From Nodosilinea foveolarum (lineage in GTDB: Bacteria > Cyanobacteriota > Cyanobacteriia > Phormidesmidales > Phormidesmidaceae), in contig QBMC01000003.1 of the NCBI GenBank assembly GCA_003242035.1, positions 1-64,000 on the forward strand: a stretch of DNA of 64,000 nucleotides, given 5' to 3'. Made by a program: the position numbers and the translations under genes. The notes beneath the pieces were generated by a model. It did not search any database. It saw only the letters and a program-made list of their open reading frames with translations, and had not been told where the DNA came from. Below, one piece after another: positions 4,652 through 37,782 of the stretch (positions within the stretch are counted from its first letter, which is position 1; the number at the start of each line of letters is the position of its first letter).

Positions 4652-5537
4652 GGTAGTGTCCTGGTAAGTGAGCTAGAACGCCGTATCCTGCTGACGCTTC
4701 TTAACCGCGAGGCGATCGCGATATAGGTGAAGATGACCGCTGGTAACGGTGTTCTAAAAGCTAAAATCTGTAGTCATCAAAGCGAGTTATCGAAGCGTAA
4801 GCAGAGACGATGAAGATAACTTGATAAGCCTGCTATAGCAACGGTTCTATTATAGCTAACGGTTAGTGACCGCTGAGTTTTTTAAAGATTAAAGCAGAAA
4901 TAATGCTCAGCGAGAAAATCTGTTCTACCGACGTATTTTATGTTCAGTTTCTTCAGGTTTAGCTGCTCTGTATCCAATTTTAGGTGCGAGGCTATTCAGC
5001 TTTTTAAAATTTGTATTTTGGAAGAATGGTATCCTTTCGAACTCAGATACTTCTTCTACGGGTTACGCTTACTAATGGTGGTATTGTATAACACCGTTTT
5101 ATAGCTGAATCAGCTAGTTAGTCAAGGTTTCATAACATTACCCCGTCAGTATTATTGAGTCTATATGAGATGAGACGACTCCGTATGACTTGCCTTTGCT
5201 AGATCCTGAGCTTTCGCGTTATGCAGGCGATCGCGCTAGCCGATAGACAACTCATCTATAGCCTTCTGTTTGTCTTTTGGGTGGCATACCTTGGCAAGGT
5301 TAAGAGAGAAATAACACATTTAATAGTTGCCAGCATTTATTGAGGCAAACGCTGACAATATGCGTTGATTAGATGGGTTAGCGATCGCGCTATGGTTCTA
5401 TTCTAAAGAAAAGCTTTCAAAATCCATGCTACGAAGATTCGTGCTATGCCAGAAGCGGGCGATAATAGTGAGCTGTTTGCTAAAAATCTGACGTACTTAA
5501 AGATCTGACAGCAGAGTAGTTTGATAGGAAATTTTCA

Positions 5538-7637
5538 ATGACCGACCGAATTTTAATGTGTGCACCTCATCATTACGATGTGGACTACGTAATTAACCCC
5601 TGGATGGAGGGGAATATTCATCGCTCGTCGCGCGATCGCGCAGAAGCGCAGTGGAACCAACTCTACGAAGTGCTAAAGACGCACGCTGAAGTAGTGCTAG
5701 TAGAGCCGCAGAAGGGCTGGCCAGATATGGTATTCGCGGCGAATGCGGGCCTGGTACTGGGCGATCAGTGTGTGCTGAGTCGGTTCTTTCATCCCGAGCG
5801 ACAGGGGGAGGAGCCGCATTTTCAGAAATGGTTTGAGGACAATGGGTTTACGGTGCATACGCTGCCCGAGAGCTTGCCTTTTGAAGGGGCGGGCGATGCG
5901 CTGATAGACCGCGCGGGGCACTGGGTTTGGGCGGGCTATGGCTTTCGCTCCGAGCTAGACTCTCACGCTTATTTGGCAAAATGGCTAGATGTGGAAGTGG
6001 TGTCGCTGCGCTTGGTAGACAATCGGTTTTACCATTTAGACACCTGCTTTTGTCCGCTGAAGGACGGGTACTTGATGTACTATCCGCCCGCGTTTGACGA
6101 CTATTCCAACCGGCTGATTGAGATGCGTGTCCCTGAAGATAAGCGCATCGTGATAGAAGAGGTAGACGCGATTAACTTTGCCTGCAATACGGTGAATGTG
6201 GATCGGGTGGTGGTGATGAATAAAGCGAGCGAGGCTTTAACGAAGGCGCTGGGCGATCGCGGGTTTAAAGTGGTCGAAACGCCGCTCACTGAGTTTTTGA
6301 AAGCGGGCGGTGCGGCTAAGTGCCTCACGCTAAAGGTGAACGAGGCGCGACAGGCAACGCCTCAATCTTCAACGATTGAGTCTCGAACGATTCTCATGGA
6401 GGGACACCTGCTAGATTCGGGGCTGGTGAATCGGGCGCTCGATACGATTGTGGCGGGTGGCGGTAGCTTTCAGGTGCTGAGCTTTGACTTGGGCAAGCAA
6501 AGACAAGACAGCTCCAGGGCAGAGGTCAAAGTATCTGCGCCAGACGATTCGGTGATGGGCGACATCATGGGTCAGCTAGTTGATTTGGGCGCAGTTACCA
6601 TGCCGGACGAAGAGGCTGCAATCTCTGCGGCTTTAGAAGGCGTTGTGCAAGATGGGGTTGCCCCAGACGACTTTTACGTCACGACGATTTATCCAACTGA
6701 GGTATGTGTTGACCGGCAGTGGCTGCGGGTCGAGGGTCAGCGGATGGATGGCGCGATCGCTATCACTCAAGACAAAGGTCAGTCCGTTGCGAAGTGCAAG
6801 CTGCTGCGCGATTTGCTCGAAGGTGAAGAGGTTGTCGTCGGCAGCAAAGGCATTCATACGATTCGCACTGCGCCTTCGCTGAAGAAAAAAATGGATGACT
6901 TTAGCTTTATGGGCGCGGGCGTGTCGAGTGAGCGCCGAGTGGAGCTAGTGGTGGATCAAATTGCCTGGGATCTGCGGCAAATTCGCGATCGCGGTGGCAA
7001 AGTAGTCGTCACGGCTGGCCCAGTGGTGATTCATACGGGCGGCAGCGAGCACCTGAAGAATTTGATTCGCGGCGGGTATGTACATGCGTTGCTAGGGGGA
7101 AATGCGATCGCTGTGCACGATATTGAGCAATCCATGAAAGGCACGTCTTTAGGCATGGACATGAAGCGTGGCGTCTCGGTGCATGGCGGTCATCGGCATC
7201 ACTTGCAGGCCATCAACACCGTGCGTCGGCACGGCAGCATTGCCAAAACCGTTGAGGCGGGTGTGCTTAAAAGCGGCGTGATGTACGAATGCGTCAAAAA
7301 CAATATCCCGTTCTCTTTGGCCGGTTCTATTCGCGACGATGGGCCGCTGCCGGATACCAAGATGGATCTGTTAGAAGCGCAGGCGGATTATGCTCGGCTG
7401 ATTGAGGGTGCGGACTTAATTTTGATGCTCTCGACCATGCTGCATTCTATTGGCGTGGGCAATATGACACCGGCCGGAGTGAAGATGGTTTGCGTGGATA
7501 TTAACCCAGCGGTGGTGACTAAATTAAGCGATCGCGGTTCTGTTGAATCGACCGGTGTCGTCACTGACGTGGGCCTGTTCTTGAGTCTGCTAGTGCAAAA
7601 ACTGGGTAAGTTGACCGGGCAGTACGCGCAGGTTTAA
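5538..7637 (+). CDS. argZ: Bifunctional arginine dihydrolase / ornithine cyclodeaminase-type protein (AgrE/ArgZ family)
   Basis: N-terminal guanidine-modifying fold (MCAPHHYDVDYVINPWMEGN...PDMVFAANAGL...HLDTCFCPL) fused to a C-terminal LOR/SDH-type domain. Confidence 0.88.
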   Translation: MTDRILMCAPHHYDVDYVINPWMEGNIHRSSRDRAEAQWNQLYEVLKTHAEVVLVEPQKGWPDMVFAANAGLVLGDQCVLSRFFHPERQGEEPHFQKWFEDNGFTVHTLPESLPFEGAGDALIDRAGHWVWAGYGFRSELDSHAYLAKWLDVEVVSLRLVDNRFYHLDTCFCPLKDGYLMYYPPAFDDYSNRLIEMRVPEDKRIVIEEVDAINFACNTVNVDRVVVMNKASEALTKALGDRGFKVVETPLTEFLKAGGAAKCLTLKVNEARQATPQSSTIESRTILMEGHLLDSGLVNRALDTIVAGGGSFQVLSFDLGKQRQDSSRAEVKVSAPDDSVMGDIMGQLVDLGAVTMPDEEAAISAALEGVVQDGVAPDDFYVTTIYPTEVCVDRQWLRVEGQRMDGAIAITQDKGQSVAKCKLLRDLLEGEEVVVGSKGIHTIRTAPSLKKKMDDFSFMGAGVSSERRVELVVDQIAWDLRQIRDRGGKVVVTAGPVVIHTGGSEHLKNLIRGGYVHALLGGNAIAVHDIEQSMKGTSLGMDMKRGVSVHGGHRHHLQAINTVRRHGSIAKTVEAGVLKSGVMYECVKNNIPFSLAGSIRDDGPLPDTKMDLLEAQADYARLIEGADLILMLSTMLHSIGVGNMTPAGVKMVCVDINPAVVTKLSDRGSVESTGVVTDVGLFLSLLVQKLGKLTGQYAQV

Positions 7638-33746: not shown

Positions 33747-34928
33747 TCATCCCACATCACTCTCCCCCACCTGCGCCAAATCAAAATAAAACGTACTCCC
33801 TTCCCCCACCACAGAGCGCACCCCAATCTCGCCCTGATGCTGCTCTACCACTCGCCGACACAGCGCTAGCCCAATCCCGCTACCCTCCGCTCGACTTTTC
33901 CCGGCCCGATTAAACATGGCAAATATTTTTTCCTGGTCGTCAGGGGCAACCCCTGGGCCATTATCGCTGACTAAAAATAGCCATCTAGCCGCTTGCAAAC
34001 TTGTGGCGGGTCGTGGCTCTGCTGCAATGGTTATCGTTGGCAAAGCCGCCTCGTTGTGCACGATCGCGTTTTTCACCAAATTGCTCACTAGCTGTACCAA
34101 AAGCTGACGAGCGCCCAAGACAACCGGCAGCTTCGACCAGCTCACTTTAGCCTGCCGGTCTTTAATTAACTGCTGAAAATTTGACACCGATTCTTCTAAA
34201 ACTTTGTTCATATCAACTGGCAGAAAGGATTCTGTCCCTTGCGATCGCATCTTCCCATAGTCCAGCAGCGCCCCCAGCACCTGATTCATACTCTTCGCCG
34301 TTCGCTGACCCATACCCACAATTTTTTGCTGCTTGGCATCTAGCGCCATTCGAGCGAGCAAATCGAAGCTGCTCGTCATAATGCCCAAAGGGTTTCTCAG
34401 CTCATGCGCCGCCGTATAGCTAAAGCTCTCCAAAGTCCGATTGCTTTCTTGGAGTTGATAGAGCGTATCGCGCAATGCATACTGCCGCTGCCGGTTTTGT
34501 AAGCAAGCGCGCACCATCGCCGCAAATATCTGGCGCTTTAGCGGTAGCTCCAATAGCAAGACACTGCGCTGATGAGCCGTTTGATTCATTAGACCCAAGC
34601 AGTCTGCAAAACGCTGATAATCGCGCATTAAAATGATGACCGGAATATCTGACCAGCTTGGCTGATCGTTCAGGCATCGACCTATTTGTTCAGCCGCTGC
34701 TTGGTTAGTGAATACTTCCTCAGTCACGACAACCAGCGCTGCATTGGTTTCAATCGCTTCGGCCACCGCCTCTACGCTCGCCGCATGGACGCAGACCATC
34801 GACTCGGCTTCTAGCACCTCTCGCAGCACCGTCGCGTTTCGCCCCCGATAGGTAGCCAGCACGATATGCCCATAAGCTTTGTAGTTGGGAGAAGATCGAG
34901 TATCGCTATTCGTCAATTCGCTAATCAT
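33747..34928 (-). CDS. Histidine kinase with degenerate N-terminal receiver-like domain
   Basis: HisKA box FSYTAAHELRNPLGIM; HATPase NLVKNAIVHN, VSDNGPGV, GSGIGLALCRRVVEQHQGEI; N-terminus lacks the canonical phospho-Asp. Confidence 0.85.
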   Translation of the reverse strand: MISELTNSDTRSSPNYKAYGHIVLATYRGRNATVLREVLEAESMVCVHAASVEAVAEAIETNAALVVVTEEVFTNQAAAEQIGRCLNDQPSWSDIPVIILMRDYQRFADCLGLMNQTAHQRSVLLLELPLKRQIFAAMVRACLQNRQRQYALRDTLYQLQESNRTLESFSYTAAHELRNPLGIMTSSFDLLARMALDAKQQKIVGMGQRTAKSMNQVLGALLDYGKMRSQGTESFLPVDMNKVLEESVSNFQQLIKDRQAKVSWSKLPVVLGARQLLVQLVSNLVKNAIVHNEAALPTITIAAEPRPATSLQAARWLFLVSDNGPGVAPDDQEKIFAMFNRAGKSRAEGSGIGLALCRRVVEQHQGEIGVRSVVGEGSTFYFDLAQVGESDVG

Positions 34929-36450
34929 CGTCTCTTAGCAAATCCTTGCCCTCCCCGGTATACTGCGGCGTACGAGACAAAATACCAGAGAACTGACTGA
35001 GCGATTGACCAATTTGAATACTGCCAGGCCGCAGCCGCACCTCTCGAATCTGCTTCTCGTGATCGCCGTAGCGCTTCTTGTATACGCTCACGGCCTGTCG
35101 AATCACCCCGCTGTCCTCAAAGTGACGCAGTAGCAGTACCGTATCGGCTAAGTAGCTGATGTCTACTGTTTCTTCTAGTGCAGGCCCAATCACGCCACGC
35201 TGAGCCACCACCAAAAAAGTCAGGACGCCGCGCCGATTGAGACTCATCATCAGCTCGTGCATTTGAGAAGTTAGCCGCGCGTCGGTTGGCATAGAGTTCC
35301 AATAGCCCGTAAGCGTGTCGATAATGACAATGCCCGCGCCCCAGATGTCCACGTCATGGTCAACTAGGCTAGCAAACTTACCTGGCGTAACATCCCCAAA
35401 GCTCAGCTCGCGAATCCGAATCCGGTCTTTGCCTACCAGTTCCGCCACATCCATTCCCAGCCCTTTTGAGCGCCGATCAAAGGTATCTGCTAGCTCATCG
35501 AATAGAAAGATACTCACCTTTCCCCCTTGCGTTGCAAAGTTATGGGCAAATAAGGTGGTCATTGAGGTCTTTCCCGTTCCGGATGGCCCAACGAGTAAAC
35601 AGCTCGTTCCGGTGATTAGGCCGCCGCCCACTAGCTTATCGAGTGAAGGTAATCCGCTGGATATAATTCGAGCCGAGTCTGCGTTCGCTTGTTCAGCAAT
35701 CGTCTCAGCCGAAATAGCCTCTACAGAGGTATCGAGGTGAGATCGATAGATGCGAATACCGCGATCGCTAATTTCCATATCGTGTTTACCCGGCTCAAAG
35801 CCGCTGCCCCGCAGCTTGGCAATGCGCAGATACCGATGATCGCTGCCATGTCTGGTGGTCTCCATCGACAAATCGATCACCCCATGCGCCATCGCATTCA
35901 GTTCGTTATCTCCGGGTGCTAGATCCTGCGTATCAGTCAGCATTAGCGTAATCTCGCGCGGCGAAATATAGTCACGCAGCTTAAACACCTGCTGCCGATA
36001 GATCAGCGAATCGCGAGCCAATAGCCTTAAGTAAGCAATGCCATCGAAAACCACCCGATTGGGTTGCTCCTGTTCCATAATCTCGATCATGGCTGTTACG
36101 GTGTCTGCCAGCTCAACCTCAGACGTATCAAAAATAGTCTGCTGCTCGGAAAGTGCTTGCAAAGACTCAACCGTACTTAAATCTTGAAAGGTGATGCCTG
36201 AAGTCTTCAGCCCGACGGATTTTGCCGAGTCTTCCAGGCTGTTTACCCGCTGAGACAAGGCTAGACAGAGCACTTTTTCTTGATTGGCTGCGCCTGCTTG
36301 TAAAAAGTGCAGGGCTAGCGTGGTCTTTCCGGTGCCTGGTGCTCCGTTGACGACATACATCTCTCCAGGAGGCAAACCCCCACGCAAAATCTTATCGAGC
36401 GTTTCAATGCCTGTAGAAGCTCGATTAGAAGTGCTTTTGCTGCTAACCAT
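34921..36450 (-). CDS. KaiC-like dual RecA-domain ATPase (not canonical clock KaiC)
   Basis: Two P-loops: VNGAPGTGKTTLALHFL and VGPSGTGKTSMTTLFAH; TGIETLDKILRGGLPPG and SGLPSLDKLVGGGLITG signatures. Confidence 0.88.
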   Translation of the reverse strand: MVSSKSTSNRASTGIETLDKILRGGLPPGEMYVVNGAPGTGKTTLALHFLQAGAANQEKVLCLALSQRVNSLEDSAKSVGLKTSGITFQDLSTVESLQALSEQQTIFDTSEVELADTVTAMIEIMEQEQPNRVVFDGIAYLRLLARDSLIYRQQVFKLRDYISPREITLMLTDTQDLAPGDNELNAMAHGVIDLSMETTRHGSDHRYLRIAKLRGSGFEPGKHDMEISDRGIRIYRSHLDTSVEAISAETIAEQANADSARIISSGLPSLDKLVGGGLITGTSCLLVGPSGTGKTSMTTLFAHNFATQGGKVSIFLFDELADTFDRRSKGLGMDVAELVGKDRIRIRELSFGDVTPGKFASLVDHDVDIWGAGIVIIDTLTGYWNSMPTDARLTSQMHELMMSLNRRGVLTFLVVAQRGVIGPALEETVDISYLADTVLLLRHFEDSGVIRQAVSVYKKRYGDHEKQIREVRLRPGSIQIGQSLSQFSGILSRTPQYTGEGKDLLRDDD

Positions 36451-36594: not shown

Positions 36595-37782
36595 ATGGCG
36601 ATTAAACCTTCTCAGATTCAACGGGCGCTTGATCAAAAACGAGCCGATTTTGCCAGCTTTGATGAGAGTACTTCGAGCTATTTGATGCAGTACCGAGCGG
36701 CCTGGGATCAGTGGGTAAAGCTGACACCGGCTAGCCGAGCGGACTGGGTGAGGTCTCAATCAAGAGACATCGGAGCTAGACCGCTAGAGCCGATGAGTCC
36801 TCAAAGCAAAGGCATTATTCGCAGCAATCTCGCCTGGGATAATCGCGAGCAAAGCCTTCAGTGGGTCAGCGAGCATCTGGCGAATGTGACAACGTTTGCG
36901 GTCGATGGCTCTCAGGTTTTTCCGCAAAAAGACTTTTCGATTCCGATTGCGCTGGTTCAAATTGGCTGGTTTGAAAATCACCACTGCAACGAGGGGCGCT
37001 ATGAGAAAGATATTCTGCTCGATGTGATGACGCCAAAGGATTTGGTGGCCGACCGCTCGCAGCCCATGGATAGGTGGATCAATATGCGCCGCTTCTCAAT
37101 GGAAGTGCAAAAGCTAACTGGCTATATAAAGAGCGCAAAAGATCGCGCCTTAGCAGAGGGCAGAGATCCTGAAAAATGCCTGGTGTTTTTTGATGGCTCG
37201 CTGGTGCTGACCTTTGCTTCTATGCTCGACGAAAATCTGCGCGCGCCCTACGTTCAGCAGGTGACGGCGCTACTCCATGCCAGCAAAAAGTACGAGGTGC
37301 CGCTGGTGGGCTACGTCGATACGGCTCAGTCGAACGACATCACAACGCTGTTGAGGACGACAAAGGATTTAGAGACGACGCGTGCGGTTCACGATGCCAA
37401 GCTGATGAATCGGCTGATGGATTGGGGCGATCGCACTCCCCTAATGATTTGCGATCGCGGCGGTATCCTAACCGAATATGGCAACCAATCCGACCAAATT
37501 GCCTTCACCTATCTCAAAACCAACGCCAACTATCCGGCTCGCCTCGAACTTCCCCGGTGGCTGTGGGACACGGGCCGCGCCGAAACCGTGATCAATCAGG
37601 TGCGCGCCGAGGTAATTGTGGGCAACGGCTATCCCTACGCGATTGAAACGGCTGACCAGACCGCTGTTTTGCAAAGTCGCGATCGCCAAATCTTTTATCG
37701 CATCCTCCAAGACTGGGCCAAGCAGGAAAATCTTCAGCTTCGCCTTTCTCAAAAAATGATGAGCAAAGCCAGACGGAGATAA
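36595..37782 (+). CDS. NurA-domain nuclease-like protein
   Basis: TFAVDGSQVFPQKDFSIPIALVQIGW; LVFFDGSLV; PLVGYVDTAQSNDI. Confidence 0.8.
   Translation: MAIKPSQIQRALDQKRADFASFDESTSSYLMQYRAAWDQWVKLTPASRADWVRSQSRDIGARPLEPMSPQSKGIIRSNLAWDNREQSLQWVSEHLANVTTFAVDGSQVFPQKDFSIPIALVQIGWFENHHCNEGRYEKDILLDVMTPKDLVADRSQPMDRWINMRRFSMEVQKLTGYIKSAKDRALAEGRDPEKCLVFFDGSLVLTFASMLDENLRAPYVQQVTALLHASKKYEVPLVGYVDTAQSNDITTLLRTTKDLETTRAVHDAKLMNRLMDWGDRTPLMICDRGGILTEYGNQSDQIAFTYLKTNANYPARLELPRWLWDTGRAETVINQVRAEVIVGNGYPYAIETADQTAVLQSRDRQIFYRILQDWAKQENLQLRLSQKMMSKARRR

Follow-up and report, generated by a model that had tools for sequence, protein, structure and literature searches.

Pairs of a KaiC-like protein and a histidine kinase with a conserved N-terminal domain were published in 2011, when De Luca et al. 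reported that in Ramlibacter and other bacteria one group of kaiC genes is systematically followed by a gene for a specific histidine kinase (PMC3164672). The members of this group carry SY, TY or SF at the phosphorylation sites and have no kaiB in their genomes, the two genes are cotranscribed in Ramlibacter according to RT-PCR, and binding of KaiC to the kinase N-terminal domain was proposed, while cyanobacterial kaiC was named as an exception to the association with signalling genes (PMC3164672). In the cyanobacterial subgroups KaiC1, KaiC2 and KaiC3, the catalytic Glu-Glu pair is kept in the CI domain (PMC5520375). SasA and CikA are kinases whose non-catalytic domain reads a KaiC-based assembly, and CikA, too, has a pseudo-receiver. 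According to Makarova et al. 2017, as cited in PMC5847659, archaeal KaiC-like ATPases are signalling hubs, some of them with inactivated ATPase domains, and they have other partners. The literature on KaiC in Pseudomonas, Azospirillum, Methylobacterium and Sinorhizobium yielded nothing on a module of the type considered here.

The window analysed in this study, a 64,000-nucleotide stretch of the genome of Nodosilinea foveolarum, carries such a pair (Table 1). It can be likened by description to the 'dark-blue' group of KaiC/Nt_HK pairs (Rta_04330/Rta_04340), with which it shares the gene order, the SY/TY/SF type of site and the lack of a neighbouring kaiB (PMC3164672). Given this earlier description, the kind of module is already known, and the notion that it is unprecedented had to be given up. 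Little work has been done on such modules, which Proteobacteria commonly carry. The window module differs from the Ramlibacter type in its cyanobacterial host with a full kaiABC set and in the replacement of the second CI glutamate by Gln. Absence of kaiB from the genome does not apply here because the host has a clock, with kaiB on another contig; as this trait belongs to the host genome, we regard the module as a homologous variant and not as a strict Ramlibacter-type member. Thus, with architecture and phosphosites matching and the no-kaiB trait missing, we call it a cyanobacterial variant of the Ramlibacter kind of module.

Table 1. Features of the KaiC-like ATPase/histidine kinase locus, with positions in the window (coordinates of the two genes include the stop codon; aa, residues of the respective protein).
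Feature	Position	Strand	Basis
KaiC-like double-RecA ATPase, 509 aa	34921..36450	-	ORF call, two PF06745 domains
First RecA domain (CI-like), aa 12-236	35743..36417	-	Pfam PF06745
CI catalytic position, Ser66-Gln67 (TCT CAG) in place of Glu-Glu	36250..36255	-	Alignment
EQQTIFDTSEVEL, aa 102-114, family-conserved, candidate docking element	36109..36147	-	Alignment
Second RecA domain (CII-like)	35002..35661	-	Pfam PF06745
CII catalytic position, Asp318-Glu319	35494..35499	-	Alignment
Ser432-Tyr433 at the KaiC S431/T432 position	35152..35157	-	Alignment
PQYTGEGKDLL, C-terminal tail motif common to the family	34936..34968	-	Family alignment
Stop/start overlap of 8 nt, ATGATTAG	34921..34928	-	ORF coordinates
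Pseudo-receiver histidine kinase, 393 aa	33747..34928	-	ORF and domains
Predicted pseudo-receiver domain, about aa 20-135	34524..34871	-	AlphaFold2, Foldseek
QPSWSDIP, aa 89-96, most conserved pseudo-receiver patch, candidate docking surface	34641..34664	-	Alignment, model
HisKA dimerisation/phosphoacceptor domain, aa 167-229, H-box AHELRNPL, His175	34242..34430	-	Pfam
HATPase_c domain, aa 274-384, N-, G1-, F- and G2-box present	33777..34109	-	Pfam

The two reading frames run as the preliminary description had them, with the ATPase stop overlapping the kinase start: at the junction, GACGATGATTAG, the kinase ATG (34928-34926) falls within the final ATPase codons and the ATPase stop codon TAG occupies 34923-34921. 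The pair is surrounded by a NurA-domain gene, a CHASE2 cyclase gene, a geranylgeranyl-reductase-like gene and an Hsp33 gene, none of which looks connected to the module, and no response regulator gene adjoins it. The NurA-domain nuclease gene (36595-37779, forward strand) is divergent from the module. Scans for consensus promoters and terminators gave matches no more numerous than in shuffled sequences. We read the two genes, with a probability of roughly 0.6, as a translationally coupled two-protein signalling module consisting of an ATPase driven by CII, with CI as a non-hydrolysing scaffold, and a conventional kinase that has a pseudo-receiver as its input domain.

The upstream protein belongs to the KaiC superfamily and is distant from clock KaiC. 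It scores 195.1 bits against the KaiC ATPase domain PF06745 (gathering score 26.6), both RecA domains announced beforehand lying above the cut-off, and only 115.6 bits against the NCBIfam model circ_KaiC (TIGR02655, cut-off 546.25), far below what the clock-KaiC equivalog models ask for. Its AlphaFold2 model (pLDDT 82.7, pTM 0.78) finds KaiC as the best Foldseek matches, and the identity to the canonical KaiC of the host itself is only 23%. The double RecA domains, both Walker A motifs and the overall fold are shared with KaiC1, KaiC2 and KaiC3, and the Walker motifs of CII are kept; in contrast to these proteins, to which it is about 22-28% identical, the window protein does not conserve the CI Glu-Glu pair, the KaiB-binding loop or the A-loop, and its gene has no kaiA or kaiB next to it. 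Alignment with KaiC revealed no A-loop-like tail at the C-terminus. Where KaiC CI has the KaiB-binding loop, which is itself not conserved, stands the segment aa 102-114, which is partly of low confidence in the model and contains two residues, Q104 and E113, that are invariant in alignment A2.

Could the module be private to the Nodosilinea genome? This was rejected once orthologues had been found in other cyanobacteria and in Proteobacteria; a single-protein query of the genome contigs gave no match, and an alignment query recovered the relatives. Cyanobacterial orthologues with 55-63% identity occur in two families, in three genomes of the same family (G011, G027 and G024, the last split between contigs) and one of the other (G215), with the kinase gene directly downstream wherever downstream sequence was covered. 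At a threshold of E <= 1e-84, only seven of the 390 genomes sampled from the class matched; three of them (L110-L112) lie outside the clade, so the module is rare and patchy in cyanobacteria. The nearest relatives beyond this phylum are proteobacterial (about 36-41% identity), encoded on plasmids and other contigs in Variovorax, Ensifer, Azospirillum, Agrobacterium, Roseomonas, Loktanella, Sphingobium, Methylobacterium, Bradyrhizobium and others. The tree joins the cyanobacterial clade, on its long stem, to the proteobacterial family (99/95 support), and a second group of KaiC-like proteins from cyanobacteria stands apart. The position found for L110 depends on a long branch.

A profile search placed a pseudo-receiver kinase directly downstream in 42/42 full-length close relatives (40 proteobacterial and two cyanobacterial, L009 and L010), and the nearest possible kinase start ranged from 59 nt inside the ATPase gene to 10 nt after it, leaving out L071, whose domain was seen by profile and for which no upstream start codon passed the filter. 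The N-terminus of the window kinase has homologues in the partner kinases of relatives such as Variovorax and Acidovorax. No pseudo-receiver was found within the flanks of at most 1.5 kb of 15 other cyanobacterial KaiC genes, mostly of canonical clock type (L023-L037; 0/15). The class of the kinase varies: most are HisKA kinases, HWE kinases occur on different branches of the tree (L057, L067, L085 and L110), and PAS and C-terminal receiver domains are optional. As the pseudo-receiver stays constant while the rest of the kinase varies, the conserved unit is the KaiC-like protein plus the pseudo-receiver. Distances between KaiC-like proteins and between pseudo-receivers correlate with r = 0.88 over 45 pairs, a value that shared ancestry contributes to and that 0/1000 permutations equalled. 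The recurrence of pair and motifs across genera and phyla argues that they are not due to chance, and the co-occurrence that the preliminary description wished to see checked extends far beyond the window's genome.

Several loci deserve mention on their own account. Vasconcelosia minhoensis LEGE 07310 (L090, about 5001-5893) holds a relic of the module in which pieces of both genes have decayed together; the ATPase has a large internal deletion, and of the kinase the pseudo-receiver part alone is detectable. L110 (G273:C61), a KaiC-like gene from a cyanobacterium, sits on a very long branch and combines Ser-Gln in CI with an HWE-type pseudo-receiver kinase. In Caballeronia zhejiangensis the module is closely followed by another, different KaiC-like gene (L079, 8291-9739), after which comes a short receiver-like ORF. 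The second cyanobacterial KaiC-like group (L011-L022, L038-L051, L111, L112; 31-36% identity) is also adjoined by receiver-like and kinase genes in most loci read; it differs by Glu-Glu in CII and mostly xE in CI, and its adjacent receiver-like domain fails the pseudo-receiver profile.

The host genome, 99.85% complete, has a clock of its own. Its kaiA, kaiB and canonical kaiC lie together on contig C228, whereas the window lies on C233, which carries neither kaiA nor kaiB; the two genes are absent from the neighbourhood of the module, as had been stated at the outset. Besides kaiB, the host has another reading frame with a KaiB domain, which is 403 aa long and SasA-like. We observed that the host clock KaiC (L001, G000:C228) reads HISAITD and so has Ala (GCG) at T432; Thr is kept there by the clock KaiC proteins of the other genomes compared (L025-L030 and L032-L037), two of which belong to the same genus. 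Either a genuine clock with a single site or an error in sequencing could lie behind this. With these components at hand, the ATPase or the kinase might feed the host KaiABC system, for instance if mixed hexamers form or if the kinase works on the SasA/RpaA output. We consider such a clock accessory unlikely, even though it is the alternative that fares best, since the ATPase is so far removed from the resident KaiC, neither the KaiB-binding loop nor an A-loop-like tail is conserved, and the same module occurs in Proteobacteria and, unlike the clock, only here and there in cyanobacteria. The module looks unlike a Kai oscillator; the kaiABC set of the host is separate from it. Of the initial proposal of a non-clock KaiC-derived switch with a dedicated kinase, the KaiC-derived protein and its dedicated partner hold up, as the Glu-Glu pairs are not intact and the gene pair is widely conserved; that it acts as a switch is still something we infer.

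The partner kinase combines a conventional catalytic core with an unusual N-terminus. It has the make-up of a HisKA sensor kinase, with a phosphoacceptor His, a HATPase_c domain and intact core boxes. AlphaFold2 predicted for its N-terminus (aa 15-165, window 34434-34886) five beta-alpha units in receiver order (pTM 0.85), with the last helix extending toward the kinase core, and the 50 best Foldseek matches were receivers or receiver-containing proteins, with neither KaiB nor thioredoxin among these 50. The positions of the acidic pair, the phospho-Asp and the Lys read A25/T26, T69 and L128, which are not those of an active receiver. On the predicted model, the N-terminus is therefore a pseudo-receiver, that is, a receiver fold devoid of catalytic residues; the absence of a phospho-Asp had been remarked on before, and acidic pair and Lys turn out to be missing as well. 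A KaiB/SasA-like reading of this domain, toward which PMC3164672 leaned while noting a weak receiver similarity, was rejected on the grounds of the predicted fold and the receiver-only matches. The kinase thus differs from SasA, which has a KaiB-like domain, in having no N-terminal KaiB-like thioredoxin fold, and from CikA, whose pseudo-receiver is C-terminal and binds KaiB, in that its pseudo-receiver is N-terminal and its gene overlaps that of a KaiC-like partner.

Pfam gave no match to this domain beyond marginal E-values in any of 36 members, PF00072 included. The pseudo-receiver (window 34524-34871 and homologues, alignment A4) is hence without a Pfam family, though conserved in Proteobacteria and cyanobacteria. 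Its strongest conserved patch, QPxWSDxP, consists of invariant or near-invariant columns in the loop that connects helix 3 to strand 4; in FrzS, a partner protein binds the helix3-strand4-helix4 surface of the pseudo-receiver (PMC12632262). Quinones bind to the pseudo-receivers of CikA and KaiA (PMC12632262), and one might accordingly regard the domain, conserved as it is across phyla, as the place where a small ligand or the redox state is first sensed, with the KaiC-like ATPase downstream or modulatory. That the best conserved patch is a surface loop with no obvious pocket argues against this, and we think it quite improbable.

Returning to the ATPase, the CI motif LALSQRV spans aa 63-69, so that the Glu-Glu pair of KaiC aligns to Ser66-Gln67, in agreement with the replacement noticed at first. 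The CII motif FLFDE (aa 315-319) and the site in DISYLAD, where Ser is kept and Thr has become Tyr, likewise proved to be as initially described. D318 and E319 are invariant in alignments A2 and A5, with Asp-Glu throughout the family, and the phosphosite pair consists of S or T followed by Y or F, with SY, TY and SF in relatives. The idea that the window protein is special in having Tyr at T432 and Ser in place of the first CI glutamate was rejected, as both are family-wide in the alignment. In these alignments, loss of the first CI glutamate, Asp-Glu in CII and an aromatic residue at T432 are traits of the family; most of the residue changes pointed out in the preliminary description are family traits because the proteobacterial relatives carry them, too. 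All 40/40 proteobacterial relatives have Ser/Ala-Glu at the CI site and keep the second glutamate, whereas Ser/Ala-Gln is found in all five members of the cyanobacterial clade that are intact or sequenced in part, among them the window protein, L009 and L010 with Ser-Gln and L109 with Ala-Gln; L110 has Ser-Gln, too. As judged by the alignment, this second Glu-to-Gln change is the only lineage-specific one and marks the cyanobacterial lineage. CI appears to be the catalytically dead half of the protein; the missing glutamates lower the likelihood of hydrolysis, short of proving its loss.

The same residues bear on the idea of an hourglass timer, in which slow Ser432/Tyr433 phosphorylation cycling in CII would be reported by the kinase, as proposed for Ramlibacter (PMC3164672); Ser is kept in the window lineage, and Tyr is counted as phosphorylatable in PMC3164672. 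Against it, several relatives have Phe at the second site and others have Thr at the first, which means that no fixed cycle over two sites is conserved. Moreover, hydrolysis in CI is the slow step of KaiC timing, and it should be impaired in the window protein. We therefore hold a timer to be very unlikely. Least credible of all is mere operon packing, in which two signalling genes co-travel and their products do not interact: gene overlaps are common in bacterial operons, but the same two partners recur in three proteobacterial classes and two cyanobacterial families, kinase cores being swapped while the pseudo-receiver is kept and no other conserved neighbour is seen.

From the gene overlap, family-wide pairing, domain folds and residue changes, which were obtained by computation, we infer for the signalling module a hexameric ATPase, a complex with the kinase, an inactive CI, a direction of signalling and a target. 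Solved KaiC proteins are hexamers, and the KaiC-like protein probably is one as well, with ATP bound in both RecA domains. CII, with its Walker motifs and Asp-Glu, would be the likely sole site of ATP turnover, and CI, with both glutamates lost, a non-hydrolysing domain that holds the ring together. The ring would offer a nucleotide-dependent surface to be read by the N-terminal pseudo-receiver of the kinase, which, not being phosphorylatable in the usual way, may act as a protein-protein input domain. Its long C-terminal helix would set the activity of the HisKA/HATPase kinase, and the latter would phosphorylate a response regulator encoded elsewhere, unlinked to the pair. A bolder version, which we put forward only tentatively and think rather doubtful as a whole, is that CI turned into a pseudo-ATPase and its KaiB-binding loop was rebuilt as the docking site for the dedicated, unclassified pseudo-receiver, such that the ring signals to the kinase directly, without KaiA or KaiB, beside the true clock of the host.

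Work on KaiC has dealt almost exclusively with its role as a clock. If the reading as a signalling module is true, a ring ATPase of the KaiC type would simply supply a kinase with its input signal, and the pair would provide a simple two-gene system, present in Proteobacteria and a few cyanobacteria, for the roles of KaiC-type rings outside timekeeping. The conserved pseudo-receiver missing from Pfam would be a concrete candidate for the docking domain.
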